Shown here: positions 1 through 13,304 of the stretch, piece by piece
Numbering within the stretch: the stretch's first letter is position 1
Layout of the letters: every line of letters begins with the position of its first letter
Made by a program: the position numbers and the translations under genes
The notes under the pieces: generated by a model
Seen by the model: only the letters and a program-made list of their open reading frames with translations
Told to the model about the DNA's origin: nothing
Databases searched by the model: none
Origin: a virus
Length of the DNA stretch: 43,009 nucleotides
IMG/VR virus record: IMGVR_UViG_3300037502_001819
Coordinates: 1 to 43,009 of that record
Direction: 5' to 3' (one strand)

Positions 1-102
1 GTGCAACACTTCTGCGCTAACGCTGGCTTCACTCTGAAGGTGAGCGCGGCGTTCACGACGACGACCTGAAGCTGAACCAGAGAATTGAGTTCTGCGTGTC
101 AT
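1..102 (-). pseudogene. Truncated second copy of the N antiterminator gene (cut by window edge)
   Basis: Leftward reading from the ATG at 102 gives 34 codons identical to the first 34 residues of the N protein at 42522-42842, including the arginine-rich RNA-binding stretch GRRRERRAHLQ. The copy is cut by the window edge. If the sequence were closed into a circle exactly as given, the next codon would be TAG, leaving a 34-residue peptide. It could be the 5' end of a full gene outside the window, a real truncated duplicate, or the same gene seen twice. Confidence 0.75.
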
Positions 103-120
103 AGATACCTCCTGAGTGAA

Positions 121-150
121 TTTTGGTGATGGTGTCTTTCCATCCCAAAA
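121..150 (-). promoter_or_regulatory. Leader hairpin upstream of the partial N copy (RNase III-type)
   Basis: In the leftward transcript TTTTGG plus GATGG pair with CCATC plus CCAAAA: 11 base pairs, one bulge and a 7-nt loop. The hairpin lies just before the AGGAGG ribosome site of the N start. Lambda has an RNase III-cleaved hairpin between nutL and N that controls N translation, and the position here is the same. All four differences from the right-end copy (127, 135, 136, 138) fall in the bulge or loop, so the stem is conserved. Confidence 0.6.
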
Positions 151-169
151 CTCACGCTTTGGTACTAAC

Positions 170-216
170 TGGCTTTTCAGCCACGTAGGTGATCCGTCAC
201 CGTTGTTAAAAGAGCG
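170..216 (-). promoter_or_regulatory. nutL-like site, left copy (boxA, spacer hairpin, boxB)
   Basis: Reading leftward: boxA CGCTCTTTTAACA at 216-204, then a hairpin GGTGA-CGGA-TCACC at 201-188, then boxB TGGCT-GAAA-AGCCA at 183-170. Lambda boxB likewise has a 5-bp stem closed by U-A and a GNRA-like loop, although lambda's loop has five bases. The right-end copy has GCAA in place of GAAA, so the GNRA pattern is kept. nutR at 1423-1467 has the same three-part layout and spacing. Confidence 0.75.
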
Positions 217-259
217 TGCTATCCGTTTCGTACTGCGTCAGCATCCTGCTGATGGGGTA

Positions 260-288
260 ACTATGCGCTAGAGAATAGTTTGAGTCAA
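260..288 (-). promoter_or_regulatory. Leftward early promoter pL
   Basis: On the minus strand TTGACT (288-283) is followed after 17 bases by CATAGT (265-260). It closely resembles pR: both share an ATTCYCTAGMGCATART block at the -10, and both are near a CCCTATTGA motif (leftward just upstream of the -35 here, 1176-1184 at pR). The -35 overlaps the small palindrome TTGAGTCAA (280-288), which resembles the pR operator, so CI and Cro probably bind here. It would transcribe the nut site and N. Confidence 0.7.
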
Positions 289-377
289 TAGGGATTAAAA
301 AGAAAAAGTCTAAAGAGACTTATTTTCTTCATTCTAAAAAGAATTTATTTTTGGTCGATTTTATGAATTAGATGCTT

Positions 378-398
378 ATACTGTATCTTTATACAGTC
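378..398 (+). promoter_or_regulatory. LexA (SOS) box and promoter for the gene at 428
   Basis: CTGT-N8-ACAG at 381-396 with consensus-like flanks (TACTGTATCTTTATACAGTC at 379-398). A -10-like TATACT (377-382) overlaps the box, as is usual for LexA-repressed promoters, although no good -35 at normal spacing is visible. The next gene downstream on the plus strand starts at 428 behind AGGAGGTGATC. The box is palindromic, but the leftward promoter pL lies about 90 bp away, so the rightward gene is the likely target. Confidence 0.8.
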
Positions 399-427
399 AA
401 GCATGGTTCTGGGCGCAGGAGGTGATC

Positions 428-628
428 ATGGGTATGATGCTTACAAGGAAAGGTGCTGGGGTTTACGAGGAAACCCCAGTAGGTAAAGAGGCATCTGATT
501 ATCTTGATAGGGTAGGGATGTATATCTGCTGCACAGGGCCGCGAATAGATGAAGGGTCAGACACCTTGGCTAAAGGTATCCTTTCATCATCGACAGATAA
601 AAATGATTCGCCTGCACCATTCAAGTGA
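428..628 (+). CDS. Small SOS-controlled protein convergent with cI; antirepressor candidate
   Basis: A 66-residue protein starting MGMMLTRKGAGVYEETP. I do not recognise a family. Two things support translation: a textbook ribosome site, AGGAGGTGATC, directly before the ATG, and a near-consensus LexA box 30 bp upstream. The last 130 bp overlap the 3' end of cI on the opposite strand, so expression would also make RNA antisense to cI and cause transcription collision. Since CI looks non-cleavable, an SOS-made antirepressor is needed for induction, and this is the candidate nearest to cI. That role is inference. The part antisense to cI could also be a chance open frame. Confidence 0.55.
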   Translation: MGMMLTRKGAGVYEETPVGKEASDYLDRVGMYICCTGPRIDEGSDTLAKGILSSSTDKNDSPAPFK

Positions 629-1095
629 TAGGTGAAGACAGATAGTGAGCCTGACACTTCCGCAACTACCAAATCGTTTGTCACCGGGTGACTTTCTGGA
701 TCAATAATGACGATTGAGCCTCGTGGAACTCTTGAGACGCCAGTATTACCAGACATAACATATGCTTGGAAATTAGGCGGGAGCTCAGAAAACCAGCTTA
801 TTTTGTTGCCGGTATTACCAGAGACATCCCAAACCGACACTTGCTTTGAGGCATCAATACTTTCAATTTTTGAATCACTCGATCCCCAAATGCTCCCCTG
901 ACCACTAATCAGCCAGTCAGCGCTAACGCCTAATGCTTTAGCTAACTTTCCTGTTTCTTTCGAAGTTTTATTCTCTCCCCGAAGAATTTTAGAAATGGTT
1001 GACTGGGAAACCTCAGACTTTTTCGCTAGGTCAGTCTGATTTTGGTTTCCGGTTTCTTGCATGGCATACGCCAGTCGTTCCGCTAGTGTTTTCAT
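499..1095 (-). CDS. cI: CI-like repressor without the autocleavage dyad
   Basis: 198 residues. The N-terminal helix-turn-helix (about residues 18-60, LAKKSEVSQSTISKILRGEN) binds operators at pL and pR to hold lysogeny. The C-terminal half has the LexA/S24 dimerisation fold (VPRGSIVIIDPE and VTNDLVVAEV). Aligned to lambda CI, the nucleophile motif GNS reads GNT, and the lysine of FKKL is replaced within VFTYHL. The linker has no Ala-Gly cleavage pair. Self-cleavage should therefore fail. The ATG at 1095 is preferred over 1104 because pRM would start transcription 1-3 bases before it. The 3' end overlaps the convergent gene at 428-628. Confidence 0.9.
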   Translation of the reverse strand: MKTLAERLAYAMQETGNQNQTDLAKKSEVSQSTISKILRGENKTSKETGKLAKALGVSADWLISGQGSIWGSSDSKIESIDASKQVSVWDVSGNTGNKISWFSELPPNFQAYVMSGNTGVSRVPRGSIVIIDPESHPVTNDLVVAEVSGSLSVFTYHLNGAGESFLSVDDERIPLAKVSDPSSIRGPVQQIYIPTLSR

Positions 1096-1132
1096 ATGCA
1101 GCAAAAATAATTCCGCAAAGAATATACGTCAA
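1096..1132 (-). promoter_or_regulatory. pRM, leaderless repressor maintenance promoter
   Basis: On the minus strand TTGACG (1132-1127) is followed after 17 bases by TATTTT (1109-1104). A start about seven bases downstream falls at 1096-1098, at or beside the cI ATG (1095). No Shine-Dalgarno sequence precedes that ATG. Lambda cI mRNA from pRM is also leaderless, so the arrangement matches. Confidence 0.6.
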
Positions 1133-1140
1133 AGTCTCTA

Positions 1141-1174
1141 TTGACTTGACCAAATCAATTCCCTAGAGCATAAT
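1141..1174 (+). promoter_or_regulatory. pR promoter with operator palindrome
   Basis: TTGACC (1146-1151), 17 bases, CATAAT (1169-1174). An 18-bp palindrome of form TTGAnTTGnnCAAnTCAA at 1141-1158 covers the -35 and sits between pR and pRM. It is the best operator candidate. A weaker related site with core TTATGTAA lies at 1180-1197, between the -10 and cro. A motif CCCTATTGA recurs at 1176-1184 and, leftward, beside pL. Confidence 0.75.
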
Positions 1175-1206
1175 CCCTATTGAATTATGTAAAAGGGAAT
1201 AACTCT

Positions 1207-1413
1207 ATGAACGCCGTCATTAAAAGAGCTATTGAGATTGTCGGCTCCCAGTCCGAGCTAGCTCGACGGGTAGGGACCGGGCAACCATCAATCAGTAAAT
1301 GGCTGAAAGGTTCAGAAATTAGCGCTCGATTCATTCCGTCAATTGTAATGGCAACTGATGGAAAGGTAAGCGCAGCTGAGCTGCTTAATTCGATCGCAAA
1401 AGCCAAGTCCTAA
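1207..1413 (+). CDS. cro: Cro-like regulator (YdaS/Cro type)
   Basis: 68 residues, mostly one helix-turn-helix: VGSQSELARRVGTGQPSISKWL at about residues 10-31. First gene from pR and divergent from cI, the position of cro in lambdoid phages. It should bind the same operators and shut off cI and the early promoters. The ATG at 1207 follows AAAAGGGAATAA, which acts as ribosome site and may be part of an operator. A TTG at 1180 extends the frame upstream but lies at the predicted transcription start and was not chosen. Confidence 0.85.
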   Translation: MNAVIKRAIEIVGSQSELARRVGTGQPSISKWLKGSEISARFIPSIVMATDGKVSAAELLNSIAKAKS

Positions 1414-1422
1414 GCAGTACCC

Positions 1423-1467
1423 CGCTCTTACACAACGGACATGAAGTCCTACGTCGCTGAAAAGCGA
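1423..1467 (+). promoter_or_regulatory. nutR site (boxA, spacer hairpin, boxB)
   Basis: boxA CGCTCTTACACA at 1423-1434 has the same CGCTCTTACACA as lambda nutR. It is followed by a small hairpin GGAC-ATGAA-GTCC (1437-1449) and boxB TCGCT-GAAA-AGCGA (1454-1467). It lies between cro and cII exactly as in lambda, in the direction of the rightward operon, and is the loading site for N and Nus factors. The 19-nt boxA-boxB spacer holding a hairpin is longer than lambda's and matches the leftward sites. Confidence 0.85.
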
Positions 1468-1478
1468 GATCTAAACGA

Positions 1479-1492
1479 AACAATAAATTGTT
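1479..1492 (+). terminator. Small hairpin after nutR, possible tR1-like element
   Basis: AACAAT-AA-ATTGTT is a perfect 6-bp AT-rich inverted repeat between nutR and cII, where lambda has the Rho-dependent terminator tR1. There is no U-tract, so intrinsic termination is unlikely. It may be only a local structure. Confidence 0.25.
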
Positions 1493-1543
1493 CGTGGCAA
1501 TAGCTGCGGCTTTGTCACGTCTAAACACTTAACCAACAAGGAA

Positions 1544-1576
1544 ATTATCCAACATGGACATTGCAAAACACAGCAA
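1544..1576 (-). promoter_or_regulatory. pRE, CII-activated promoter for cI
   Basis: The minus strand carries TTGC-TGTGTT-TTGC at 1576-1563, an exact match to the CII recognition pattern TTGC-N6-TTGC, with the -35 region between the repeats. Seventeen bases further is GATAAT (1549-1544). It overlaps the start of cII and points toward cI, as in lambda. The transcript would run antisense through cro and supply the establishment burst of repressor. Confidence 0.85.
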
Positions 1577-1841
1577 AAGGATTCGCGAGGTAGAAAGCGA
1601 ATTGCGATCCCGCCTGGTCACTATGGGGCAGGGCAATTTCGCGAAGATGGCCGGATGGGCTGACTCGAAAGTTAGCCGGTTAAACATCCACGACATGGCC
1701 GTGACGTTCGTACTTCTGGAGAAAGTATGGGAGACGAGCTTAATCAGGGAAGTGGCAAGGCAGGCTGTAGAAGCAGTGATGCCTAAAAAGCAAAAAGCCC
1801 CGGCGGCAACCGAGGCTTCTCAAATCACTATCGAATTCTGA
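1554..1841 (+). CDS. cII: CII transcriptional activator
   Basis: 95 residues, close to lambda CII in size. A helix-turn-helix lies at about 25-45 (GNFAKMAGWADSKVSRLN), followed by an oligomerisation helix. The end SQITIEF parallels lambda CII's QIQMEF. CII activates pRE to make CI, and the exact site is present at 1563-1576. It follows nutR and precedes the replication genes, the lambda order. Stability would depend on host FtsH and on CIII, encoded at 41113-41244. Start ATG at 1554 after AAGGAAATTATCC. Confidence 0.9.
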   Translation: MDIAKHSKRIREVESELRSRLVTMGQGNFAKMAGWADSKVSRLNIHDMAVTFVLLEKVWETSLIREVARQAVEAVMPKKQKAPAATEASQITIEF

Positions 1842-1861
1842 ACAAATTCACAGGAGACATT

Positions 1862-2554
1862 ATGCACTTGGAGCCTATAGAAAGGCAACATGGCGTGCTT
1901 AAGGAAATGAACATTCCTGCAAATTTCAGGATGGCTGGTTGGGTATACGTTCTTAGCAACGACTTTATGCCTGACATCTACAAAGTCGGCATGACAACGA
2001 CCAGCCCTGAAATACGCGCCAAAGAGCTTTCGTCTGCAACTGGGGTTCCGGCCCCCTTTAAAATAGTTGCTGCTTACCACTGCAATGACCCAGCACAGTC
2101 AGAGCGAGACGCTCACGAAGAGCTTGCCAGCTATCGCATAAATGAGTCGCGTGAGTTCTTCAAATTAGAAATTGAAGAGCTAACCGACGCTTGCGAAGCG
2201 TGCTGCGAAGCCAATGTGAATCGCTCTGTGCAAGACCTAGCTAATGACTACCACATCATCTCTTTTGAAAAGCTAGATCACCTCAATCTTGCATCTCTTT
2301 TTGAGGATATTGGGCTGAATGTGTTTGGCGACAAAATGGCAATTGCCGAAAGGCTAATCCGCCTTGGCGCCGAAAGGGTATTTAAGGTGATGACTGACAA
2401 TTATCAGTCTCTCGTCCTCAATGAAAACAAAGCATATGCCATAGAAAACAGCGATAGCCAGTTCTTCACCCTTATGGAGGAAGAACAAGCCAGGTATGAA
2501 GCTGAAAAGCTTGCAGCTGGAATCTATGGCCCTCAACTACCGGTGGACTTCTAA
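1862..2554 (+). CDS. GIY-YIG-like T5orf172/MUG113 domain protein
   Basis: 230 residues. Residues 26-100 match the T5orf172/MUG113 type of GIY-YIG-related domain: GWVYVLSN, then YKVGMTTTSPEIRAKELSS, then VPAPFKIV, a conserved histidine and ESREFFKL. Around 145-170 a helical stretch (LFEDIGLNVFGDKMAIAERL) resembles a SAP-type DNA-binding motif, which is tentative. A DNA-binding or nuclease role is likely but untested. It is inserted between cII and the O-like gene, which are adjacent in lambda. Its stop overlaps the next start (TAATG), so translation is coupled. Confidence 0.75.
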   Translation: MHLEPIERQHGVLKEMNIPANFRMAGWVYVLSNDFMPDIYKVGMTTTSPEIRAKELSSATGVPAPFKIVAAYHCNDPAQSERDAHEELASYRINESREFFKLEIEELTDACEACCEANVNRSVQDLANDYHIISFEKLDHLNLASLFEDIGLNVFGDKMAIAERLIRLGAERVFKVMTDNYQSLVLNENKAYAIENSDSQFFTLMEEEQARYEAEKLAAGIYGPQLPVDF

Positions 2555-3432
2555 TGGCCAGATCTCGAAACATCAAACCAGGCTTTTTCACAAACGATGA
2601 ACTGGCCGAATGCTCTCCGCTCGCTCGACTGCTTTTTGCAGGGCTGTGGACAATTGCTGACAAAGAGGGGCGCTTAGATGATCGCCCTAAGAAGATTAAG
2701 GCTCTCGTTCTGCCTTTCGATAATGTGGACTGCGATGAATGCCTGAAGCAACTTCATGACCGCCAGTTCATCAATCGCTATACAGTTGAAGGCAACGCCT
2801 ACATCCAGATTTCGAACTGGAAGAAGCACCAGAATCCACACTGCAAGGAAGCACCTAGCGAGATACCAGAACCATGCGCATCACAACCTGAACCGGAAGA
2901 AGCACCAGTAAAGCACGATGCTGAACCGGTAGAAGAAGCAGACATTAAGCCTCAAGTTATTGAAAATACAGAAGCACCAGAAAAGCACGGTGCAAGTACG
3001 GTGCAAGCATCAGACGAGAACAATTTAAATCCTGCTGATTCCCTTAACCTGATTCCTGATTCCCTTAACCTGATTCCCTATAACACCCAAGCCGCTGACG
3101 CGACTTGCGAAGGGGAAAGTCAGGCGACGGTTCATGCCATGTCAGGTCGCTATGCATTCGAAGGAAATATCGTTCGGCTAAATCACAAGGACTACGAAGC
3201 CTGGAAGCTGCTCTATCCGAACATCGATCTGAACTACGAACTGCAGAAGCTGGATATCGAGTTCACGCATGAGAAGCCCAAGAACTGGTTTATCACTGCC
3301 AGTCAGAAGCTCAGCTACCAGAACAAGCAAGCCGCATCACGACCTGCACAGCCAGCACGCCGCGCCGTGAACGAAAACTTCTCGTCTAAAAACTATGGCA
3401 CCACTGAAATGCCAGCCTGGATGGAGGGCTAA
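2554..3432 (+). CDS. O-like replication initiator protein
   Basis: 292 residues. Residues 1-95 (RNIKPGFFTNDELAECS, LLFAGLWTIADKEGRLDDRP, YIQISNWKKHQNPH) match a common phage replication family with a winged-helix N-terminus. The middle is Pro/Glu-rich and low complexity, encoded by repeated DNA, and the end is a separate globular tail. It sits directly before a DnaC-type loader, as O precedes P in lambda, so it is probably the origin-binding initiator. The repeats inside the gene (2823-3078) may be the origin itself. The function of the C-terminal domain is inferred from position. Confidence 0.8.
   Translation: MARSRNIKPGFFTNDELAECSPLARLLFAGLWTIADKEGRLDDRPKKIKALVLPFDNVDCDECLKQLHDRQFINRYTVEGNAYIQISNWKKHQNPHCKEAPSEIPEPCASQPEPEEAPVKHDAEPVEEADIKPQVIENTEAPEKHGASTVQASDENNLNPADSLNLIPDSLNLIPYNTQAADATCEGESQATVHAMSGRYAFEGNIVRLNHKDYEAWKLLYPNIDLNYELQKLDIEFTHEKPKNWFITASQKLSYQNKQAASRPAQPARRAVNENFSSKNYGTTEMPAWMEG
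2823..3078. repeat. Direct repeats inside the O-like gene; candidate replication origin
   Basis: A 21-bp unit beginning GATTCCCTTAACCTGATTCC is tandemly repeated at 3037-3057 and 3058-3078. A 23-bp unit beginning GAAGCACCAG occurs at 2899-2921 and 2971-2993 with two differences, and its first 10 bases also occur at 2823-2832. Lambda's origin is a set of iterons plus an AT-rich stretch inside O, so these could be initiator sites. They also encode a low-complexity linker, so a protein-level cause is possible. Confidence 0.4.
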
Positions 3433-3434
3433 CC

Positions 3435-4289
3435 ATGGACTACCCACGCGAAATCGAGAGACTGGAAAAATACCTGGCGGAAATTAGCCAGCCGCCAAAA
3501 GAAATCGAGAACACCAAGTTGTATATCAATCCTGCTATCTGCGATAAGCACGGCCAGTTCGAGCAGCGCATTCGTGAGATGCATGCAGGTCAGCGCGTCC
3601 TGACAACAAGCAAAAGCGAATGCCCTGAGTGCCTGAAAGACCGCATCAAGCAGTGCAGGGAAGATCACAAAGAGCAGGAGCGCCGGATTAAAGAGAACCA
3701 GATAGAGCGACTCATGAGCATGCTGCAGCTGCCGGAGCGCTTCGCCGGCTCAACGCTGGAAAACTACCAACCTGTCAACGATGAGGCTGCGCGCTGCCTG
3801 AAGCTGTGCAAAGCATATGCGACTAAGTGGCCGGAGCGCCTGAAGCAGGGTGGCGGGCTCGTAATGTGCGGCAAGCCTGGCACCGGCAAAAACCACTTGG
3901 CACTGGCAATCGCAAAACACGTTATCAACGAGCACCAAAACTCAGCGCTGTTCACAACAGCACTGCGTATCGCGCGCCTGTTTAAATCAACATGGTCAAA
4001 AAACTCTGAGCGCACCGAGGCCGAGGTGATCCGGATTTACACCGACCCTGAGCTGCTGATTATCGACGAAGTCGGCGTGCAGTTTGGCAGTGAGGCGGAG
4101 AAGCTGATCCTGTTCGAAATCATCAACACTCGATATGAACGCATGATGCCGACCATCCTGATTAGCAACCTGCCCAAAGACGAGCTGGCTGCTTTCATCG
4201 GCGAACGCGTCATTGACCGCATGAACGATGGCGGCGGTTGTACGCTGGCTTTCACATGGGACTCTTACCGCTCACGAGGTGCAGCATGA
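3435..4289 (+). CDS. DnaC-like replicative helicase loader (AAA+ ATPase)
   Basis: 284 residues. The N-terminus carries cysteine pairs (CDKHGQFEQRI and CPECLKDRIKQC) that could bind zinc, followed by an AAA+ domain: Walker A GKPGTGKN at about 139-146, Walker B LLIIDEVG, sensor 1 ILISN, and an arginine-containing end (GERVIDRM). DnaC and IstB-type proteins load the host DnaB helicase onto an initiator-bound origin. It takes the place of lambda P, two bases after the O-like gene. The C-terminus overlaps the next gene (ATGA). Confidence 0.9.
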   Translation: MDYPREIERLEKYLAEISQPPKEIENTKLYINPAICDKHGQFEQRIREMHAGQRVLTTSKSECPECLKDRIKQCREDHKEQERRIKENQIERLMSMLQLPERFAGSTLENYQPVNDEAARCLKLCKAYATKWPERLKQGGGLVMCGKPGTGKNHLALAIAKHVINEHQNSALFTTALRIARLFKSTWSKNSERTEAEVIRIYTDPELLIIDEVGVQFGSEAEKLILFEIINTRYERMMPTILISNLPKDELAAFIGERVIDRMNDGGGCTLAFTWDSYRSRGAA

Positions 4290-4489
4290 CACAGGTAACA
4301 CAGCTGATTATCCGGCCAACACAGGACCAGACGCGCAACCTCGTGCGGGCAATCATCGACATCGCGAAGAAGCAGCCGCCATCCCATGAGGCTCTGCTTC
4401 ACATCCGCACGCTGGCAGCCGAGGCGCTGGACATGATGAGCGATTCCCGTTCCGACAAAGGCGGCAAGAACAAAAAAGGTGGGTTCTGA
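4286..4489 (+). CDS. Small phage protein of unknown function
   Basis: 67 residues, helical and basic at the end (DKGGKNKKGG). No family recognised. Its ATG at 4286 overlaps the stop of the DnaC-like gene (ATGA), and it ends one base before the next gene, so it is part of the rightward replication operon. The frame is open further upstream only inside dnaC. Confidence 0.7.
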   Translation: MTQVTQLIIRPTQDQTRNLVRAIIDIAKKQPPSHEALLHIRTLAAEALDMMSDSRSDKGGKNKKGGF

Positions 4490-4490
4490 T

Positions 4491-4850
4491 ATGGCATTCG
4501 TATCTCAAATTGGACTTGCAACCAGCAAAGGGCGGCGAGGAGCTGTCAAGCTCGCGCCTTTCGTGGTTTTCAGGCGATCAAAATCTGGTGCCTGCTGTGG
4601 AAACCTGAATCGTTCTATGCCTTTTCGTGGCGAGCAGATTGATATTCAGATTGACGAAGAAGCTAGGCAGATTCGCATAGGCAGAGACGAAAACGGATAC
4701 CGGGTAGAACCTAAAGGCGGTCAGTTCTCATGCAGTATTCGCCTGCTCGAAATCCTTGGTTCCGAGCGCATTTTTCTGACGCTTGCTGATGATGGTTGGT
4801 GGTACGGCAGCTATGCACAAGAAGGAGTCGCCAATGAAAAAGCTAACTAG
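4491..4850 (+). CDS. Phage protein of unknown function
   Basis: 119 residues, beginning MAFVSQIGLATSKGRRG and containing a basic segment (RRGAVKLAPFVVFRRSKSG) followed by an acidic, beta-rich part with DIQIDEEARQIRIGRDENG. No domain recognised. It starts one base after the previous stop, is preceded by AAAGGTGGG, and overlaps the next start by 17 bases, which supports translation within the operon. Confidence 0.7.
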   Translation: MAFVSQIGLATSKGRRGAVKLAPFVVFRRSKSGACCGNLNRSMPFRGEQIDIQIDEEARQIRIGRDENGYRVEPKGGQFSCSIRLLEILGSERIFLTLADDGWWYGSYAQEGVANEKAN

Positions 4851-4998
4851 CGATACCGCTTCAGCACTTCTTGCAAGGCTCAAAGAGAACGCCTCATATG
4901 TCCAGCCAACCATCCATGAAGGATACATGATGCAAGCCCTTGAGATTGCCCTGCCAGCACTTGAGCAGCAGGAACGCGAGCGAGGAGAGGAAGAATGA
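4834..4998 (+). CDS. Small acidic protein of unknown function
   Basis: 54 residues from the ATG at 4834, preceded by AAGGAG. Helical with an acidic tail (EQQERERGEEE). It overlaps the 3' end of the previous gene and the start of the next by four bases (ATGA). The open frame extends upstream to 4783, but that start has no ribosome site. Confidence 0.65.
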   Translation: MKKLTSDTASALLARLKENASYVQPTIHEGYMMQALEIALPALEQQERERGEEE

Positions 4999-5204
4999 AA
5001 AATTTCGATGAAGCTGGATGTCGTGTACAGCTCAATCCCAATGGGAGCGACCTGCGCTGTGGAGACAAGCTAAATAATCTCAACTGGAATGCGAATGAAG
5101 GCGTTGTGCAGCTTTGCGAATTGTGTCGCCTTAAAAAGCAGAATAGCACCATGCTGGAAATGCTTAATCGCAGTCATGGCACCCGCAGTGAGGAACAACA
5201 ATGA
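4995..5204 (+). CDS. Small cysteine-containing protein of unknown function
   Basis: 69 residues with CGDKLNN and a later CELCRLKK, a possible but incomplete zinc site. It begins at an ATGA overlap with the previous gene after GAGGAAGA, and its own stop overlaps the next start. Unrecognised. Confidence 0.65.
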   Translation: MKNFDEAGCRVQLNPNGSDLRCGDKLNNLNWNANEGVVQLCELCRLKKQNSTMLEMLNRSHGTRSEEQQ

Positions 5205-5368
5205 GCGACAAAGATGAGCTGGAGCGGCATAAGTTTGAAGCGTGGTTCGAGGCGGAATGGCGCGAAATAGTTGAAAGTTATCCTCGAATGGAAAAGATAC
5301 GCTACAAAAATATCGCAAAGTCGGCGTGGCTAGCCCGCAGCAAGCAGGAGGGGAATGATGGACATTAA
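5201..5368 (+). CDS. Small charged protein of unknown function
   Basis: 55 residues (begins MSDKDELERHKFEAWFEAEW). Helical, rich in Glu, Lys and Trp, resembling short phage proteins with an ExWF...W pattern followed by an AWLAR segment. Start overlaps the previous stop (ATGA at 5201) and its end overlaps the next gene. Overlap on both sides and the absence of gaps support a real gene. Confidence 0.6.
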   Translation: MSDKDELERHKFEAWFEAEWREIVESYPRMEKIRYKNIAKSAWLARSKQEGNDGH

Positions 5369-5576
5369 CCGGACATCTCGCGCTCTCCATACCCTAAATA
5401 TCTCCTATCAGTACTACTACCACATGCTTGGCGTGTCAGATGGCGTTTTCGCCACTGGAGGTAAAAAGTGGCGGCATTGGGGTTTCAGATACCGGCGCTC
5501 AGCGATTAAGAAAAAATTAATCTCCCTTATTGAGCATGACCGGGTTCTCACCGGTAGAAGGAGCTGGTTTTTATGA
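5355..5576 (+). CDS. Small basic protein of unknown function
   Basis: 73 residues, rich in Tyr and Arg (YQYYYHML, RYRRSAIKKK). A strong GGAGGGG precedes two adjacent ATGs (5355, 5358), and the second has the better spacing. No domain recognised. The stop overlaps the next start (ATGA). Confidence 0.65.
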   Translation: MMDINRTSRALHTLNISYQYYYHMLGVSDGVFATGGKKWRHWGFRYRRSAIKKKLISLIEHDRVLTGRRSWFL

Positions 5577-5776
5577 GCAACGTAATCCCCCTCAAGAAAT
5601 CTACCTATCTCCTGCCAGATGACGAATTCGAAGCCCTCCTGCAGGAAGTAATCATCCACGGCCGCAAGTTCCACGACTTCACCTGCTATCCGGCGGTGAT
5701 GCGCAAGGTGCTTGGCGACGCACTGAAGAGAGACAAGCGCGATGGAGATACCGAAAGAGGGCCTTCGGCTTCATAA
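5573..5776 (+). CDS. Small protein of unknown function upstream of ninB
   Basis: 67 residues, beginning MSNVIPLKKSTYLLPDDEF, helical and followed by a basic end. ATGA overlap with the previous gene, and a 35-bp overlap with ninB. Unrecognised. Probably part of the nin-like block by position. Confidence 0.65.
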   Translation: MSNVIPLKKSTYLLPDDEFEALLQEVIIHGRKFHDFTCYPAVMRKVLGDALKRDKRDGDTERGPSAS

Positions 5777-6197
5777 GAGCAACTTCAACGCCATCGGGCA
5801 ACAGCTTCAACCTCTGCTCGAATCCGGCGAATGTTACCGGCTAACCCTTAAGCCGTGGAAAGACAAACGCAGCCTTTCACAGAACGCACTTTCCCATGTC
5901 TGGTACGAGCAGCTCAGCGAATACCTCATTCGCCGCGGCAAAACCATCGCTACCAAAGAGTGGGTAAAAGACGCCATGAAACACACCTACCTCGGCTATG
6001 AGCAGCGGGAAATGGTTGATGTTGTCACTGGCGAGAAAACCACAATCAACTCGCTTCGCCATACCTCAGATCTGGATACGGGAGAGATGCATTTCTTCCT
6101 GACGCAGGTAGAGGGCTGGGCATTAAACGTCGGCTGCAAGCTGATGGTGCCGAGCGACAGCGAATATCAGAAGCTGAAGGACAAACAAAACCAATGA
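5742..6197 (+). CDS. ninB: NinB-like recombination protein
   Basis: 151 residues. The signature RSLSQNALSHVWYEQL at about 46-61 corresponds to the LxQNxxxW motif of lambda NinB (Orf), and it ends in a helical region. In lambda, NinB binds single-stranded DNA and SSB and helps RecBCD-independent recombination by substituting for RecFOR. Placed early in the nin block between the replication genes and ninE/ninG, the expected order. The start at 5742 overlaps the previous gene and no better one is seen. Confidence 0.8.
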   Translation: MEIPKEGLRLHKSNFNAIGQQLQPLLESGECYRLTLKPWKDKRSLSQNALSHVWYEQLSEYLIRRGKTIATKEWVKDAMKHTYLGYEQREMVDVVTGEKTTINSLRHTSDLDTGEMHFFLTQVEGWALNVGCKLMVPSDSEYQKLKDKQNQ

Positions 6198-6388
6198 CCC
6201 CATTCACCGATATTGGCGCAGCCATCGAAGAAGCTGCGTGGCTCGCTTTCGTCCATAAGAAACCTCACTGCGTATACCAGCGCTTTGGCGGCCTGATGGA
6301 AGTGCAGCCAGAGAACCCCGATCGCAATCCAATGTACACAACCGGCGCGCCCGGCATCGTGACTACCGAATACAGGAGCGCAGCATGA
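6194..6388 (+). CDS. Small phage protein of unknown function
   Basis: 64 residues (MTPFTDIGAAIEEAAWLAFVHKKPHCVYQ in two parts, then an Asn/Pro-rich loop). Similar short proteins with an N-terminal helix followed by a HKxPHxVY segment are common in enterobacterial phages, but I know no function. Overlaps ninB and the next gene by four bases each (ATGA). Confidence 0.65.
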   Translation: MTPFTDIGAAIEEAAWLAFVHKKPHCVYQRFGGLMEVQPENPDRNPMYTTGAPGIVTTEYRSAA

Positions 6389-6675
6389 CCGGTAAGCGCC
6401 TCACAGAAAAAGAAATCAATGCAATACGCAAGATGGCTAAGACGATGTCGACGGCAGAAATAAGTCGCAAAACAGGTCGCTCTTATAGTGCGATTTACAG
6501 TGCTGCTGCGCGGCACGGAATTTCGTTCGAAGTCAGTTGTGTGCAGCACCACACTGGGTCAGAGGGAAGAGAGATTGTGCGTCTGCGCAACTCAGGCATG
6601 ACGTACCCTCAGATAGCAAAGACGACGGGCGTAAACGTTTCATCCTGCCGGTATCTGTACAGGACTTACGCATGA
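6385..6675 (+). CDS. Helix-turn-helix DNA-binding protein
   Basis: 96 residues with two helix-turn-helix-like segments: MSTAEISRKTGRSYSAIYSAA at about 20-40 and MTYPQIAKTTGVNVSSCRYL at about 72-91. The double layout suggests a small DNA binder or regulator. Target unknown. Coupled to both neighbours by ATGA overlaps and located just before ninE. Confidence 0.7.
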   Translation: MTGKRLTEKEINAIRKMAKTMSTAEISRKTGRSYSAIYSAAARHGISFEVSCVQHHTGSEGREIVRLRNSGMTYPQIAKTTGVNVSSCRYLYRTYA

Positions 6676-6848
6676 GCAGGCAAAGGAAGTCGCCAACGCA
6701 AATCATCATGGATCACATGATATTCCTGCCCACCAAAAGAACCCGCAGCAAACGCAAGCCCATCCCATCAGCCAGTGAGGTAGTCACCTATGACCACTGT
6801 TATCAGCTGCTGAAAGCTAAATGGGATCGCATGAGGAAGTCACGATGA
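6672..6848 (+). CDS. ninE: NinE family protein
   Basis: 58 residues. Strong visible likeness to lambda NinE: MSRQRKSPTQII against MRRQRRSITDII, and FLPTKRTRSKRKPIP against YLPTKR-R-KRKPIP, with the same length and basic character. Function of NinE is unknown. Lies within the nin block and shares ATGA overlaps with its neighbours. Confidence 0.88.
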   Translation: MSRQRKSPTQIIMDHMIFLPTKRTRSKRKPIPSASEVVTYDHCYQLLKAKWDRMRKSR

Positions 6849-7048
6849 AAGGTACAAATGCTTACGACCTATATCACCTGCACCGAAAAGAGATTGACCG
6901 GCAGCACTATGCCTATGCACGCAACATCAGGGGAAGGCATTACCGAAACCAACTGAGGCCTTTTCTGCGCGCGCTCGACGACCGAATCAGGGCAAAGGTT
7001 TGGCCGCGAGGAAGAGCGTATCTGCGAGTGCTGAGGTATCTGTCATGA
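6845..7048 (+). CDS. Small basic phage protein of unknown function
   Basis: 67 residues, strongly basic and aromatic (DRQHYAYARNIRGRHYRNQLR). No domain recognised. The basic character suggests a nucleic-acid-associated role, which is only a guess. ATGA overlaps with ninE and with the 27-residue frame that follows. Confidence 0.65.
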   Translation: MKGTNAYDLYHLHRKEIDRQHYAYARNIRGRHYRNQLRPFLRALDDRIRAKVWPRGRAYLRVLRYLS

Positions 7049-7128
7049 AAGAACGCTGCCAGCGCTGCTACACCATCCTCACAAGCGAAGATAAACATCA
7101 CTACGGAGAAAATCATGCTTCCAATTGA
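7045..7128 (+). CDS. 27-residue CxxC microprotein
   Basis: MKERCQRCYTILTSEDKHHY followed by GENHASN. It has one CxxC and two adjacent histidines, a possible minimal zinc knuckle. It begins at an ATGA overlap with the previous stop and overlaps the next gene by 14 bases. Very short, so it may be only a coupling leader for the gene at 7115, but tiny CxxC proteins are common in nin regions. Confidence 0.4.
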   Translation: MKERCQRCYTILTSEDKHHYGENHASN

Positions 7129-7354
7129 GACCCAATGCGCAGACGAGCTTGCCGATGTTTTAGATTCAATCGGGGAGCGAGGTGAGGAGCCAATGCTTTA
7201 CCTCCTGAGTTATCTGCATGGATACCTTGAGGCTGTAAGTGCTGGAGAGGAGAGAATCCCCTTTGTAATGGACCTAGGCGGGACCGGTCTTCGAATAGAA
7301 ATTATTGACGATATGGATGAGTACGGAGACGAGCAATTTGGGAGGCTGCACTAA
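7115..7354 (+). CDS. Small acidic protein of unknown function
   Basis: 79 residues, acidic (IEIIDDMDEYGDEQF at the end). Ribosome site GGAGAAAATC precedes the ATG at 7115. No family recognised. Stop overlaps the HNH gene start (TAATG). Confidence 0.6.
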   Translation: MLPIETQCADELADVLDSIGERGEEPMLYLLSYLHGYLEAVSAGEERIPFVMDLGGTGLRIEIIDDMDEYGDEQFGRLH

Positions 7355-7875
7355 TGGCTACTAATGCGAAAGAATGGAAATTGACTCATGACCGCTTAAC
7401 TCATCTGTTCACTTATGACCAAAAAACTGGTGAGTTCGTGCGAAGGGTTTATCTCTGGGGCCCGGCACAAGCTGGAATGAGGGTAGGATCAAAGCATTCA
7501 TGCGGCTATCTGGAATGCATGATTGATGGGGAGCGATACTTCCTGCACAGGCTGGCATGGTTTTACGTTCACAAAAAATGGCCAGATGGGGTGATTGACC
7601 ACATAAACCATGACAGAAAAGATAACCGGATCTCAAACCTTAGAGATGTAAGCCCGCAAGGTAACGTGGTCAACTCTTCATTAAAATGTACAAATAAAAC
7701 AGGACATAAAGGAATATATATATGCAGCAGGACTGGGAAATACGTAGCACAAATCACTTTCAATTATAAATGCAGGCATCTCGGAACTTTTGAGCTGTTA
7801 GAGCACGCCGTTCAGGCAAGGCAAGCGGCAGAAAAAGAAATCCATAAGCTGGTTTATGGAGGTGAAGATGACTGA
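7354..7875 (+). CDS. HNH homing-type endonuclease with AP2 domain (first copy)
   Basis: 173 residues. HNH_3-type core: FLHRLAWFYVHKK, then VIDHINHDRKDNRISNLRDVS with the DHINHD and N residues of the metal site, then an AP2-like DNA-binding segment (GIYICSRTGKYVAQITF, then HLGTFELLEHAVQARQAAE). Such free-standing enzymes are usually mobile genes that spread by cutting uninvaded relatives. It interrupts the block of small nin-region genes and is related to the second copy at 8841-9491. Confidence 0.88.
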   Translation: MATNAKEWKLTHDRLTHLFTYDQKTGEFVRRVYLWGPAQAGMRVGSKHSCGYLECMIDGERYFLHRLAWFYVHKKWPDGVIDHINHDRKDNRISNLRDVSPQGNVVNSSLKCTNKTGHKGIYICSRTGKYVAQITFNYKCRHLGTFELLEHAVQARQAAEKEIHKLVYGGEDD

Positions 7876-7942
7876 CTCCGACTGGATTGGGTTGTTTCTG
7901 CTGAGCATCATCATCGCTGGCTGCATGGGAGGGAGAAGGTAA
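7868..7942 (+). CDS. 24-residue single-span membrane microprotein
   Basis: MTDSDWIGLFLLSIIIAGCM then GGRR: a short polar start, one hydrophobic span and a basic tail. GGAGGT lies four bases before the ATG. Overlaps the HNH gene's end and the next gene's start (TAATG), so it is tightly packed. A similar microprotein (SDWI start, IAG, GG end) is encoded at 42108-42182. Function unknown. Confidence 0.6.
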   Translation: MTDSDWIGLFLLSIIIAGCMGGRR

Positions 7943-8139
7943 TGCTCAAAGCAAAATCGCTCGCAAAATTTCACCTGATTGCCGCTTTAGCCTGGGCCGT
8001 TCTGACGCTACCGACGCTGATTTGGTGGAAAGAGAGCATCCTCTGGGTTTCCCTGATGACCATCTACGCCATCGTTGTAGCTCACCTTGCGGCCTACAGT
8101 GCAGCGCACGCTGAGAAGGAGCAGAAGAGAAATGGCTAA
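7942..8139 (+). CDS. Two-span membrane protein of unknown function
   Basis: 65 residues with two hydrophobic segments (about 10-28 and 33-52) and a charged tail (HAEKEQKRNG). Predicted inner-membrane protein. The start overlaps the previous stop, and it overlaps ninG by eight bases. Similar short membrane proteins are found next to ninG in other phages. No function known. Confidence 0.7.
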   Translation: MLKAKSLAKFHLIAALAWAVLTLPTLIWWKESILWVSLMTIYAIVVAHLAAYSAAHAEKEQKRNG

Positions 8140-8758
8140 AGGCATCAAGCCGCCGAAGCCGAAGACCTGCCCCATATGCTCTACCGAATACACCCCTCGA
8201 AGTTCTCTCCAGAAAGTCTGCCACAACTACAAATGCGCCATTGCGTTCAACAAGAAACGCGATGAGGAACTTGCTGCGCGTGATAAACGCAAGCAGGAGC
8301 GTCTACAGCGCGATGATTTGCGGCAACGAAGGGAGAGGCTCAAGGGCAAGCCGGAATGGAACAGAGAGGCTCAGGCAGCGGTTAACAGGTACATATTCTG
8401 GCGTGATTACGGCAAGCCCTGCATCTCATGCGGCCGGCAGCTCAATTACGGCGTTCGTGGCGGAGCAGTAGACGCAAGCCATTACCGATCGCGTGGTGCA
8501 GCACCATGGCTCCGCTTCAACGTTTTCAACAATAACGCTAGCTGCGTTCCCTGCAACAGAGACTTATCAGGCAATCCGATCCCCTACCGCATCAACCTCA
8601 TCAAAAAGTACGGCATCGAGAGGGTTGAGCGCATCGAGCACGACAACACCGTACGCAAATTCGATATCGACTACCTGAAACGGGTGAAGAGCATCTTCAC
8701 GCGGCGGGCACGTCATTACGAAAAATTGCGTAAGCGCCAGATGGAGATAGCAGCATGA
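8132..8758 (+). CDS. ninG: NinG (Rap-like) recombination nuclease
   Basis: 208 residues. N-terminal zinc motif CPICSTEY...CHNYKC, a long basic helical region, then CISCGRQL and a C-terminal DASHYRSRGAAPWLRFN...CVPCNRDLSGN, the hallmark of NinG. Lambda NinG/Rap is a structure-specific endonuclease that cuts recombination intermediates. The ATG at 8132 is chosen because family proteins start MAK-KxP near the first zinc motif. It is followed by a small overlapping frame and the second HNH gene. Confidence 0.93.
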   Translation: MAKGIKPPKPKTCPICSTEYTPRSSLQKVCHNYKCAIAFNKKRDEELAARDKRKQERLQRDDLRQRRERLKGKPEWNREAQAAVNRYIFWRDYGKPCISCGRQLNYGVRGGAVDASHYRSRGAAPWLRFNVFNNNASCVPCNRDLSGNPIPYRINLIKKYGIERVERIEHDNTVRKFDIDYLKRVKSIFTRRARHYEKLRKRQMEIAA

Positions 8759-8844
8759 GTGAATCCCTCAGGAAGAAATGGAAAATGCTGCGGCTGATGA
8801 AGCTGCGCGGCATGTACGAAATCAGAATGGAGAAAGAGTCATGA
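8755..8844 (+). CDS. 29-residue basic microprotein
   Basis: Begins MSESLRKKWKMLRLMKLRGM and is strongly basic and helical. It bridges ninG and the second HNH gene with four-base ATGA overlaps at both ends, the pattern of coupled translation. Could be a real microprotein or only a coupling frame. Confidence 0.4.
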   Translation: MSESLRKKWKMLRLMKLRGMYEIRMEKES

Positions 8845-9491
8845 AGTTATGCGCAGCACCTGGTTGCGACCGAAAACATGCGGCACATGGATATTGCAAC
8901 ATGCACCGACAGAGGATGCTGAGGGAAGGGCATCTTGAGCTTAAATCAAGTCAGGTGAAAGAACTAAATCAACAAACGCTTCAGCAGCTTCTCCATTACC
9001 AAGCAGATACAGGAATATTTACTTGGAAGGTGAAGATAAAGGGGTGTGTAAATCCGGGAGATATTGCGGGGTGTATCGACAAACAGGGTTATAGGGTTAT
9101 CCGAATATTCAACAAAAATAGAAAAGCGCATCGATTGGCATGGCTTTACGTTTATGGGGAACAACCCAAGCTTCTTGACCATATTGACCGAAATAGGTCA
9201 AACAACGCCATTTCAAATCTCCGCATAGCAACGCAGCGAGAAAATACGATAAACCGTTCATCTCTGAGTAATAACGCCTCCGGATTTACAGGTGTTCTCT
9301 GGCATGCGAAGGCAAAAAAATGGGAGGCGATGGTTACCGTAAAGGGGCAGAGAATTTATCTGGGGCTTTTTACTGACCCTTTTGAAGCTGCACAGGCGCG
9401 CGAGCAGTACTGCCAAAAAAATCTTGGCGAGTTTTATAAATCCGATCTCCGCAACACAGCAAAACTACTGGGGGTTAAGCATGCAATCTGA
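8841..9491 (+). CDS. HNH homing-type endonuclease with AP2 domain (second copy)
   Basis: 216 residues. N-terminal zinc-like CAAPGCDRKHAAHGYCNMH motif, then an HNH_3 core (AHRLAWLYVYGE, LLDHIDRNRSNNAISNLRIAT) and an AP2-like C-terminus (GFTGVLWHAKAKKWEAM, YLGLFTDPFEAAQAR). Related to the enzyme at 7354-7875 but with the extra N-terminal domain. Probably a mobile endonuclease gene lying between ninG and the DUF1133 gene. Overlaps the latter by 11 bases. Confidence 0.85.
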   Translation: MKLCAAPGCDRKHAAHGYCNMHRQRMLREGHLELKSSQVKELNQQTLQQLLHYQADTGIFTWKVKIKGCVNPGDIAGCIDKQGYRVIRIFNKNRKAHRLAWLYVYGEQPKLLDHIDRNRSNNAISNLRIATQRENTINRSSLSNNASGFTGVLWHAKAKKWEAMVTVKGQRIYLGLFTDPFEAAQAREQYCQKNLGEFYKSDLRNTAKLLGVKHAI

Positions 9492-10095
9492 CGCACTCGC
9501 ACAGCTGGCGCAGGTAATGCGCAAATCAGACCTGAAGAAGCGATACCTCCACCCTGTAAAGCTCATCACTCCACTGCAGTCTGCATGGGTGCGCTGCCTG
9601 CTAGATATGTGGGGCGAGAAGTACGGCGGCCACGTTGGGCCCGACAGCGGCAAGGTAAGCGTGATAGGGCGGCTGATGATTCGTAAGGAGTGGAACGACA
9701 GGGAGTCAGAGCGAATTATGGAAGTGGTGGAGAGCTTACATCAGCAGGGATACCGCGGTGATGACCTGTTCATCAAGGCAAAGCAAATCATTAACCCGCA
9801 GAACTCAGTCAGCAATCTTCTCGAGCGCGCCAACGAGCAAGAAGATGCCGACCTGGTTGAAACTGTAATCTGCCGTCTCTTTGCACCAAATAACCCGATC
9901 CGACATGTAGCAATTAAATACTACTGCGAGCGCAAATGCTCGCAAGATATCGCGGTAGAGCTGGCGAGGCTCACCGGCATCGATAGTCAGTCAGCGTGGA
10001 GGCGCATTAAGTGGTGCAGAGAGCTACTTGAAGCAAGCGTATTTCACGCTATCGTGTTCGAACTGGAGGCTAACAAGCAGAAGATTGCAGCTTAA
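9481..10095 (+). CDS. DUF1133 family protein, putative late-gene antiterminator
   Basis: 204 residues. The central SAWVRCLLDMWGEKYGGHVG is typical of DUF1133, and the C-terminus has a helix-turn-helix-like region (CSQDIAVELARLTGIDSQSAWRRIKWCREL). It is the last gene of the early operon, directly before the late leader and lysis genes, exactly where Q sits in lambda, and no other Q candidate exists. A Q-like role is inferred from family and position. The ATG at 9481 is used because upstream codons lie within the HNH gene. Confidence 0.8.
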   Translation: MQSDALAQLAQVMRKSDLKKRYLHPVKLITPLQSAWVRCLLDMWGEKYGGHVGPDSGKVSVIGRLMIRKEWNDRESERIMEVVESLHQQGYRGDDLFIKAKQIINPQNSVSNLLERANEQEDADLVETVICRLFAPNNPIRHVAIKYYCERKCSQDIAVELARLTGIDSQSAWRRIKWCRELLEASVFHAIVFELEANKQKIAA

Positions 10096-10149
10096 ATCGG
10101 AGAACTCGCAAAAATAATTTGAAAACACAAAATGAAAGTGCTAGAGTTC

Positions 10150-10158
10150 TGATATGCT
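10150..10158 (+). promoter_or_regulatory. Candidate late promoter pR' (extended -10)
   Basis: TGATATGCT has the extended -10 form TGnTATxxT and lies 55 bp after the DUF1133 gene, followed about 65 bp downstream by an intrinsic terminator. No good -35 at 17 bp is visible, which an extended -10 can tolerate. Start would be near 10165. Confidence 0.4.
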
Positions 10159-10222
10159 CGCGGCAGTAGTCGTTGAGCAGTCAGTTCCATCACTATCTTG
10201 TGGATTCCAAAGAGCCTCACGA

Positions 10223-10247
10223 CCTCACCAGTCGGTGGGGCTTTTTT
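10223..10247 (+). terminator. Intrinsic terminator tR'-like
   Basis: CCTCACC-AGTC-GGTGGGG followed by CTTTTTT: a 7-bp stem, tetraloop and U-tract. It would stop the short transcript from the late promoter unless polymerase is modified by the Q-like protein. Confidence 0.75.
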
Positions 10248-10491
10248 ACGTTCTTCGCAACGGCAAGGGTTATTGGTGGGTGCTTTCGAGCGCCTTAGAG
10301 ACGCCGATTGCTCTTGGCCGTTGTGGTGAATTCGCAGGCTGATGCGCGGAAAGGAATGGCGACCTGTGCTCCTGCCATTTCAAATAATTGTCCATATGCC
10401 GGAGATCAGCACCGGCCACCACAACCAAATAAGCTCTGGGCAGACGTGCCAGGCCATTAATCGCAATTGCGTCAGAGCATCAAATTACAAG

Positions 10492-10515
10492 AGGTCGCCT
10501 ATGAGCGGCCTTTTT
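10492..10515 (+). terminator. Second terminator in the late leader
   Basis: AGGTCGC-CTATGA-GCGGCCT with a T5 tail: a 7-bp stem including one G-U pair. Probably a second stop that the antiterminated late transcript reads through. Confidence 0.6.
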
Positions 10516-10760
10516 CTGTTTAGCGACCTCCCGAATCCAAATCGTATTTCCCTGGCTGTGTGGGGAGGATCGCTCTTTTCTACGACGGATAGCCGCAATC
10601 GCGGCGTTCTCATTGTGATCAACTAAAGCTGCGTCGGGCATTTAGCGGCGGGAAGGCTCGAGGGGAGTTTCTCAGGTGACAGTGAGAAGTTTAACTCGGC
10701 TTGTTCTGTTCACAATGTCATCAATTCCTAAACAGAGTGAGCCTCCAGTTGGGGGATAGG

Positions 10761-11087
10761 ATGAAGCGACGCATGCCTTACAAATCAGATCCGGGCGTAC
10801 TGGCTGCAATGATAGCGCTGGGCATGACACTGCTTGGTGCAATAGCAGCATACGCCTACAAAGTTTTAAGCGGGGAAGCCTTCAGCTGGCGAACCCTGTG
10901 CCTTCAGGTAATTGTCTCTCTCTTTGCCGGCCTTCTGATGATGCTGCTCGCCAACTACTGGCAGTGGCCGCAAGAAGTGACTGGCGCTATCTGCGGTATG
11001 GCTGGCTGGTCTGGCTCATCGCTTATCAAGGCTCTTGAAAAGCGTTTCCTGCAAAAAGCAGCGGGGGATGCGGGAGTTGCAGAATGA
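10761..11087 (+). CDS. Phage holin (three-span type)
   Basis: 108 residues with about three hydrophobic segments (roughly 12-35, 44-66 and 72-90) and a charged C-terminus (KALEKRFLQKAA). The start MKRRMPYKSDPGV resembles the MPYKxDPG start of a common enterobacterial holin family. Holins form inner-membrane holes that release the endolysin. First gene of the lysis block, behind GGGGGATAGG, and overlapping the endolysin start (ATGA). A second ATG at 10773 is an alternative start and could allow dual-start timing control. Confidence 0.82.
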   Translation: MKRRMPYKSDPGVLAAMIALGMTLLGAIAAYAYKVLSGEAFSWRTLCLQVIVSLFAGLLMMLLANYWQWPQEVTGAICGMAGWSGSSLIKALEKRFLQKAAGDAGVAE

Positions 11088-11713
11088 TTACCCGTGACCA
11101 GTTCAAGAAAGCCACCGCAATTAGCGATGCGCTGGCGACCAGATGGTATCCGCACCTGACTGCTGCGATGGAGGAATTTGGGATCAACACTCCAAAGCGC
11201 CAGGCATATTTCATAGCCCAAATCGGAACGGAATCGGGCGGGTTCACTGTAGTGAGCGAAAGCCTGAATTACTCAGTCGCCGGGCTCGCCATCTTCGGCG
11301 CACGCCTCACTGCAGCTCAGCGAGAACAACTTGGGCGTAAGCCGGGAGAGCCGGCCCTTTCTCAGCAGCGTCAGGCAGCTATTGCCAATCTGGTTTATGG
11401 CGGGAGATACGGTAATAACCTGAACGGCGACGGATGGAAGTATCGCGGTCGCGGGCTGAAGCAAGTGACCTTCCATGATAATTACGAAGTGTGCGGAAAA
11501 GCCTTAAACCTTCCGCTGCTGACTAATCCTGATTTACTGCTGGAAGATGCTAATGCCGCGCGATCGGCTGGCTGGTTCTGGCATGCTAACGGCTGTAACC
11601 GATTTGCCGACGCTTCGGACATTACCGGACTGACCCGCAGGATTAACGGCGGGACAAACGGACTTCCTGATCGCATCGCGCGCACTAAGGTTGCAGAGCA
11701 GGTGCTTGTATGA
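11084..11713 (+). CDS. GH19 family endolysin
   Basis: 209 residues. Chitinase-class (GH19) lysozyme features: FIAQIGTESGGF with the catalytic Glu near residue 47, a second conserved part YGGRYGNNLNGDGWKYRGRGLKQVT, and FWHANGCNRFAD near the end. It cuts the glycan strands of peptidoglycan. No signal peptide or SAR segment is seen, so export depends on the holin. Lies between holin and spanin genes, with ATGA overlaps on both sides. Confidence 0.92.
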   Translation: MITRDQFKKATAISDALATRWYPHLTAAMEEFGINTPKRQAYFIAQIGTESGGFTVVSESLNYSVAGLAIFGARLTAAQREQLGRKPGEPALSQQRQAAIANLVYGGRYGNNLNGDGWKYRGRGLKQVTFHDNYEVCGKALNLPLLTNPDLLLEDANAARSAGWFWHANGCNRFADASDITGLTRRINGGTNGLPDRIARTKVAEQVLV

Positions 11714-12111
11714 CAGGAAAAGCAAGAATGGCCCGTTATCGCCGATTCATCCCAACTCTGTTTGCAGTGGTCATCATCGGCTTTGTGGGAAAGCTCTGGT
11801 ACGACAATGTGAACCTCACGGAGCGCAACAACCGCCTGCGTGAGCAATTCATTCTGGCGAATGAGCGGAACATGAAGTTTGCGGAAGGCATCGGTCCGAT
11901 TACGAAGCGGATCGACAGCCTGGCTACAACTCTGGATGAAGAAACCCGTCGCCGGTCAACAGCCGAAGCCCGTGCTAACTCGCTACAGAAAGAAAACGAG
12001 TTTCTGCGCAGCACCGGCAAGTGCTCTATCGCTATCGATCCGAACGCGGTGCAGAAGGGTGCTAAAGACCCCAGCGCCGTAATTATCCAGGCTGCGCCAG
12101 CGGAGCAGTGA
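11710..12111 (+). CDS. Membrane-anchored coiled-coil lysis-region protein
   Basis: 133 residues: one N-terminal membrane span (about 14-28, TLFAVVIIGFVGKLW), then a long coiled coil (NLTERNNRLREQF to KENEFLRS), then a short Ala/Pro-rich tail. This is the general plan of an inner-membrane spanin subunit. A second protein of the same plan follows, so this one may be an extra spanin-like factor or a lysis regulator. ATGA overlap with the endolysin. The later ATG at 11728 is an alternative start. Confidence 0.65.
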   Translation: MTGKARMARYRRFIPTLFAVVIIGFVGKLWYDNVNLTERNNRLREQFILANERNMKFAEGIGPITKRIDSLATTLDEETRRRSTAEARANSLQKENEFLRSTGKCSIAIDPNAVQKGAKDPSAVIIQAAPAEQ

Positions 12112-12112
12112 T

Positions 12113-12907: not shown

Positions 12908-12910
12908 TGC

Positions 12911-12947: not shown

Positions 12948-12954
12948 CTGTCAA

Positions 12955-13224: not shown

Positions 13225-13304
13225 AGTAATGAACCTTGCTGTGTGAGATGCCAAATGCATCAGCATTAATATATATAAACGTGACTAACAATACAGGATA
13301 AAAA

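Follow-up and report, generated by a model that had tools for sequence, protein, structure and literature searches.

Candidate SOS-controlled antirepressors, a family overlapping the cI 3' end in antisense beside uncleavable lambdoid repressors

Introduction

To our knowledge, it is understood in only a few phages how DNA damage is sensed by a prophage whose repressor is uncleavable.

One class of antirepressors, which includes Tum, GfoA/GftA, and AntC, is made from promoters that carry a LexA box. Tum of phage 186 prevents CI from binding to its operators (PMC3121763), the Gifsy prophages pair the small LexA-controlled antirepressors GfoA, GfhA, and GftA with the lambdoid repressors GfoR, GfhR, and GtgR, which are not cleaved (PMC3121763), and AntC of phage N15 is an SOS-regulated antirepressor as well (cited in PMC3121763, PMC10432266). 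In linear plasmid-like phages, TF-smORF modules encode an unannotated small protein that inactivates CI without proteolysis (Silpe et al. 2023, PMC10432266), and these modules do not depend on the SOS response but are switched on by a transcription factor whose gene is adjacent and divergent (PMC10432266). The locus described here contains a 66-codon open reading frame (ORF) that stands behind a LexA box, as the genes of the first class do, and converges on the gene of a CI with a dead S24 domain. This ORF, at 428-628, probably encodes a small SOS antirepressor acting on the uncleavable CI.

Organization of the window and its immunity region

The window, by which we mean the whole 43-kb stretch of IMG/VR DNA analysed here (43,009 nucleotides), is a lambdoid phage. 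Its gene order is lambdoid, with cI, cro, cII, and the replication genes first and the tail genes reaching to ~33.6 kb, beyond which an integrase is followed by the left operon, whose last gene encodes an N-like antiterminator. The window was opened between N and cI, and the CI/ORF locus therefore corresponds to the rex/PL interval of lambda. The surroundings of the ORF consist of N (phrog_271), cI, and non-coding sequence only. The immunity region has the following features outside cI and the ORF.

260-288, minus strand: PL-like promoter TTGACT-17-CATAGT, from a consensus scan, pointing away from the LexA promoter
285-297: operator-like 13-bp TCAATAGGGATTA on the OL side, read from the sequence
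1146-1174, plus strand: PR-like promoter TTGACC-17-CATAAT, from a consensus scan, codirectional with the LexA promoter
1207-1413, plus strand: Cro-like HTH gene (YdaS family / phrog_35)
1554-1841, plus strand: gene of a CII-like activator

The exact reverse complement of TCAATAGGGATTA is found at 1171-1183 on the OR side, so that copies flank cI on both sides. The two ends of the window (1-260 and 42741-43000, which hold the leader and the first part of the N-like gene) are identical at 252/260 positions, and this imperfect terminal overlap is that of a circularly permuted phage genome, perhaps with two variants in the population behind it.

A CI repressor with a dead S24 domain

499-1095, minus strand: CI repressor of 198 aa with an HTH and a catalytically dead S24/LexA-type domain (Pfam, AlphaFold, alignment to LexA)

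A Pfam search with the window CI gave a significant match to HTH_3 (E 6.8e-10) and a sub-threshold one to Peptidase_S24 (E 0.042). In its AlphaFold model (mean pLDDT 84.7), the HTH is joined to an S24-type beta fold, as in the S24/LexA-fold repressor superfamily, and the structural matches include the lambda-186 hybrid repressor, 186 CI (rank 3), lambda CI, and LexA. A sequence-only reading of this DNA had proposed that CI keeps the S24 fold, with GNT in place of the nucleophile Ser, no Lys at the general-base position, and no Ala-Gly site. The model bears out the first point and the alignment to LexA the other three: the Ser119 column holds Thr (GNTG), the Lys156 column holds Phe/Thr, and the cleavage-site region reads VSG (Ser-Gly) where LexA has AG. 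Neither the Ser-Lys dyad nor the Ala-Gly or Cys-Gly site of self-cleaving S24/LexA/CI proteins was found in the window CI. Across the wider CI family, the Ser column is occupied by Ser or Thr, and no member has Lys at the K156 column. Judged from these columns, the dead-type CI should be unable to self-cleave by any known route, and the absent Lys and the change from Ser to Thr predict that it stays uncleaved after DNA damage.

The convergent ORF and its LexA box

379-398: LexA box, core at 381-396 (CTGTATCTTTATACAG) with 0 mismatches to CTGT-N8-ACAG, 20.7 bits
417-424, plus strand: ribosome binding site AGGAGGTG (AGGAGG), read from the sequence, SD-like in most relatives
428-628, plus strand: ORF of 66 aa, proposed SOS-controlled antirepressor (comparative evidence, AlphaFold, profile tests)
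456-479, minus strand: perfect 9-bp hairpin CTGGGGTTT-N6-AAACCCCAG directly past the cI stop, read from the sequence and folded

The same reading had described a LexA box at 381-396 driving a 66-codon gene with a perfect ribosome site that runs into the 3' end of cI, and each element holds. The core lies in the 20-mer TACTGTATCTTTATACAGTC, AGGAGGTG precedes the ATG, and the N-terminal part of the ORF (428-498) lies outside cI, with 499-628 antisense to the cI 3' end in a convergent overlap of 130 bp. For the score of the box, 20 locally shuffled copies of the window served as a control and gave maxima of 10.6 to 20.2 bits; a consensus scan scored no good sigma-70 promoter at this box. The hairpin, which lies inside the ORF, is possibly the cI terminator, as most relatives have a hairpin at the corresponding place, followed in several by T-rich sequence.

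The window carries two further LexA boxes, one at 33768 (28.8 bits) and one at 37951 (20.5 bits). The former, the strongest of the window, precedes a two-gene unit (33808-34352) past the tail genes.

33808-34044: phrog_3893, function unknown, first gene behind the 33768 box
34011-34352: UmuD-like gene, phrog_3469, second gene behind the 33768 box
37679-37936, minus strand: phrog_17759, function unknown, in the left operon with the 37951 box directly upstream

Since it includes a UmuD-like gene, the operon at 33.8 kb is probably SOS repair cargo.

Relatives of the locus and pairing with dead CI

When viral contigs were scanned with the ORF or CI as a single sequence, nothing matched, and a CI alignment was needed. 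Alignment-based scans of viral contigs and genomes yielded a family of 76 loci in enterobacterial prophages, with 55 distinct CIs and 19 representatives at <80% CI identity. In the annotated phage collection, the CI relatives were two Yersinia phages (43% identity) and the Flyfo siphovirus Tbat2_3 (34%), all of which have a convergent small ORF and a LexA box past cI. The ORF is unannotated in these records, having been missed because it overlaps cI on the opposite strand. Among 392 Enterobacteriaceae genomes, the ORF profile found the same 20 as the full-length CI profile (E below 1e-50), plus one decayed copy. In two of the 20 genomes (G180 and G289), the profile matched in its antisense part only and the match contains stops, an indication of how far this part reflects cI. 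E. coli genomes gave matches only to the HTH of a cleavable CI. More distant CI matches, from plasmids, Mannheimia, Pseudomonas, Providencia, and Proteus, were rejected as relatives, having intact S24 sites and no box with an ORF.

In nearly all relatives, a LexA-like box lies 100-190 bp past the cI stop and a convergent ORF occupies the same antisense phase. Counted as at least 14 bits within 250 bp, the box accompanies ~50/54 distinct dead CIs (two family members misfiled by the length rule were added back by hand, and L084 is at the threshold) and 1 of ~55 catalytically intact CIs. Catalytically intact CIs lack the ORF with its box, also where their HTH resembles that of the dead type. In Yersinia phage vB_YenM_21.09, the only strong LexA box of the genome is the one at the convergent ORF (19.1 bits, the next scoring 12.6), and this phage was isolated after mitomycin C treatment (PMC9224151). 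Because the gene adjoining the LexA box is conserved, the arrangement is more than chance, and this comparative evidence strongly supports the earlier proposal, with a LexA-controlled gene that serves the non-cleavable CI.

Several loci depart from the common pattern. In CIs of one HTH class, the C-terminal domain can be a live S24 domain, with no LexA-controlled gene (L161, from E. coli 99RCEF), or a dead domain accompanied by that gene (L106), the two CIs sharing 63% identity in the HTH and 22% in the C-terminal domain. The window and L083 are almost identical over OR/PR and the part of cI that codes for the HTH (window 918-1206) but differ clearly more in the CI C-terminal domain, the ORF, and the LexA region, which looks like the exchange of one block. 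L162 and L163 have a dead CI and a LexA-like box at +55 (17.3 bits) without the family ORF, and a different SOS-controlled partner may be present there. As to protein versus RNA function, the natural variants give opposite indications. In L125, a natural test of the two, the ORF is frameshifted near its start and the LexA box is intact (25.2 bits). L134, L138, and L197 keep an intact ORF without a LexA box, with a pN/pS of 0.09 for the L134/L138 pair, and the ORF start codon of L134 has an inverted repeat ahead of it (CCCTGTG...CACAGAGGG type), possibly the site of another regulator or a terminator. The trigger may have been exchanged in these three loci, which fits a protein whose trigger is exchangeable.

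Selection on the N-terminal hairpin

The ORF proteins of the family (52 distinct) all lie in one antisense phase relative to cI. The part outside cI, ~20-25 codons long, carries the motif M-x5-R-x3-G-x-Y, in which R7, G11, and Y13 are invariant across 39 aligned ORF sequences. In 49/52 proteins, Arg follows the start at a spacing of 6 residues; the spacing is 5 in L084, 7 in L003, and 3 in L123, where the start chosen by the script is probably too late. Pooled pN/pS for this part is 0.25, with a range of 0.09-0.34 over the groups with synonymous changes. An HMM of the outside-cI part, built with the tested lineage left out, placed the true frame first among 150-260 frames in 21/21 lineages (E 3e-11 to 0.04). 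The AlphaFold model of the ORF is confident only for an N-terminal beta-hairpin (residues 1-20, pLDDT ~74), the tail being disordered. Pfam, PHROG, and NCBIfam searches with the ORF gave no match, and Foldseek on its model returned only noise. By sequence comparison, the family is translated and under purifying selection, and its N-terminal hairpin (~24 residues, outside cI) is under selection at the protein level.

The antisense overlap was considered separately. In the ORF phase, 19/19 representative cIs have an open frame of at least 33 codons, and random synonymous recoding predicts ~9/19 (joint P 3.6e-9, if lineages are independent and codons are used as in the remainder of cI; a Fisher combination of the P values gave 0.43 but is unsuitable for such discrete probabilities). 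An internal control stretch of cI was open in 10/19. An antisense overlap of at least ~100 nt is kept in all lineages. No extra amino-acid constraint on the tail was found, as 176 of the 202 third-position changes silent in cI were silent there too, with 175.8 expected, and the idea of selection on the tail residues was rejected, their conservation being no more than cI imposes. With conservation outside cI and a freely varying tail, the selected core is the short hairpin, with an open tail. For the window/L083 pair, all 18 differences in the overlap fall at third positions; the idea drawn from this pair, that the overlap adds constraint on cI, was rejected, since nonsynonymous change in cI is not generally lower there.

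Proposed mechanism and alternatives

The uncleavable CI, the LexA control, the tie to the CI type, and the case of vB_YenM_21.09 together indicate an antirepressor. In a lysogen, the ORF would be kept off by host LexA bound at 379-398, and the phage would be silenced by its uncleavable CI. Upon DNA damage, LexA would be cleaved and the 66-aa protein made, and its conserved N-terminal beta-hairpin could then bind CI, most likely at the dead S24-type C-terminal domain that it always accompanies. CI would thereby be inactivated and PL and PR would open, possibly with a contribution from antisense transcription across the cI 3' end. The absence of the ORF beside intact CIs with similar HTHs suggests that the C-terminal domain is its partner. 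From the conservation in about twenty lineages, we infer that the ORF is likely the trigger that wakes the dormant virus; the occupancy of the box by LexA, the binding of the ORF protein to CI at this domain, and the ensuing induction are parts of the same inference.

The trigger could instead be RNA. SOS transcription from the LexA promoter would then act against cI, by collision or as antisense, or would continue through cI into cro and the lytic operon. This would agree with the overlap and open frame that all lineages keep over residues that are not themselves selected. From the ORF to PR, a plus-strand terminator scan of the window gave one weak site (1003-1016) and no strong one, the hairpin past cI has no T-tract on the plus strand, and cro and the lytic operon run in the direction of PR, the same as that of the LexA promoter. 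However, the part outside cI is conserved as protein, by its pN/pS, its invariant R/G/Y, the leave-one-out test, and the SD, all of which would be needless for an antisense RNA, and we consider RNA as the trigger improbable. Conservation at the protein level favours the protein, with room for an antisense or read-through contribution. A broader scheme, in which one SOS transcript acts at three levels (antirepressor, antisense or collision on cI, and read-through to cro and the lytic operon) and the C-terminal domain, ORF, and box form an exchangeable induction cassette replacing the self-cleaving domain on the same HTH, is put forward tentatively, as rather unlikely.

The remaining alternatives concern the identity or target of the protein. 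The gene behind another LexA box (33808-34352 or 37679-37936) might be the real antirepressor, leaving the ORF an accessory SOS role; the two boxes score 28.8 and 20.5 bits, and the Gifsy and 186 antirepressor genes do sit away from cI (PMC3121763). Yet the 33.8-kb unit looks like repair cargo, vB_YenM_21.09 has the same CI type with its sole strong box at the convergent ORF, and this ORF tracks dead CI across lineages, which makes such a role for either gene quite improbable. That the ORF is an SOS protein with some other target (host division, RecA modulation, or lysis), placed beside cI by chance, is very improbable given its strict association with dead CI and its absence beside intact CI; the function is unproven by database matches and 186 Tum has a DinI domain, but the ORF lacks DinI similarity. 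Finally, the ORF is short, overlaps cI and the hairpin, and is unannotated in the Yersinia and Flyfo records, as a chance antisense frame over the cI terminator would be. An untranslated frame is nevertheless hardly credible in view of the conservation outside cI, the ribosome binding site, the start spacing, and a frame held in ~20 lineages.

If the ORF is the antirepressor, about twenty enterobacterial prophage lineages contain a ready-made and unannotated trigger, which would predict in which prophages DNA-damaging antibiotics elicit a response without cleavage of the repressor. The comparisons also suggest that one induction mechanism replaces another by exchange of a C-terminal-domain cassette. 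These predictions are directly testable in the published mitomycin-inducible Yersinia phages.

Comparison with known antirepressor systems

Similar to CI/Tum of phage 186, the locus combines a repressor with a dead S24/LexA-like C-terminal domain and a LexA-controlled antirepressor candidate. However, Tum has 146 aa, and its gene lies ~6 kb from cI (29082-29522 versus 22433-23011), whereas the ORF has 66 codons and overlaps cI convergently. No Pfam match pointed to Tum/DinI similarity of the ORF, and its profile found nothing significant in phage 186. The Gifsy antirepressors resemble the ORF in being small, LexA-controlled, and directed against non-cleaved lambdoid repressors, but those repressors are ~150 aa long without an S24 domain, unlike the CI here, and their antirepressor genes lie in the dinI operon outside the immunity region, whereas the ORF lies inside it, adjoining cI. 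The ORF profile had no significant match in the Gifsy-1 (LT2) stretches 1-15000 and 28000-48491, no family member was found in N15 20000-46375, and no sequence link was found between the ORF/CI system and the 186 or N15 proteins. In contrast to the TF-smORF modules, the ORF has a LexA box, and the window has no divergent transcription-factor gene between N and cI. In the open-access literature, to which the search was confined, neither a description of the CI/antisense-ORF arrangement nor experimental work on the family was found. The best reading is that the ORF works like Tum and GfoA/GftA, with no homology by any test made here. With this functional likeness, no detected similarity, and no earlier description, the locus would hence represent a known kind of switch in which both the family and the gene arrangement are new. 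It is best read as a family of SOS-controlled antirepressors, so far unannotated, whose genes lie inside the immunity region and run antisense to the cI 3' end.
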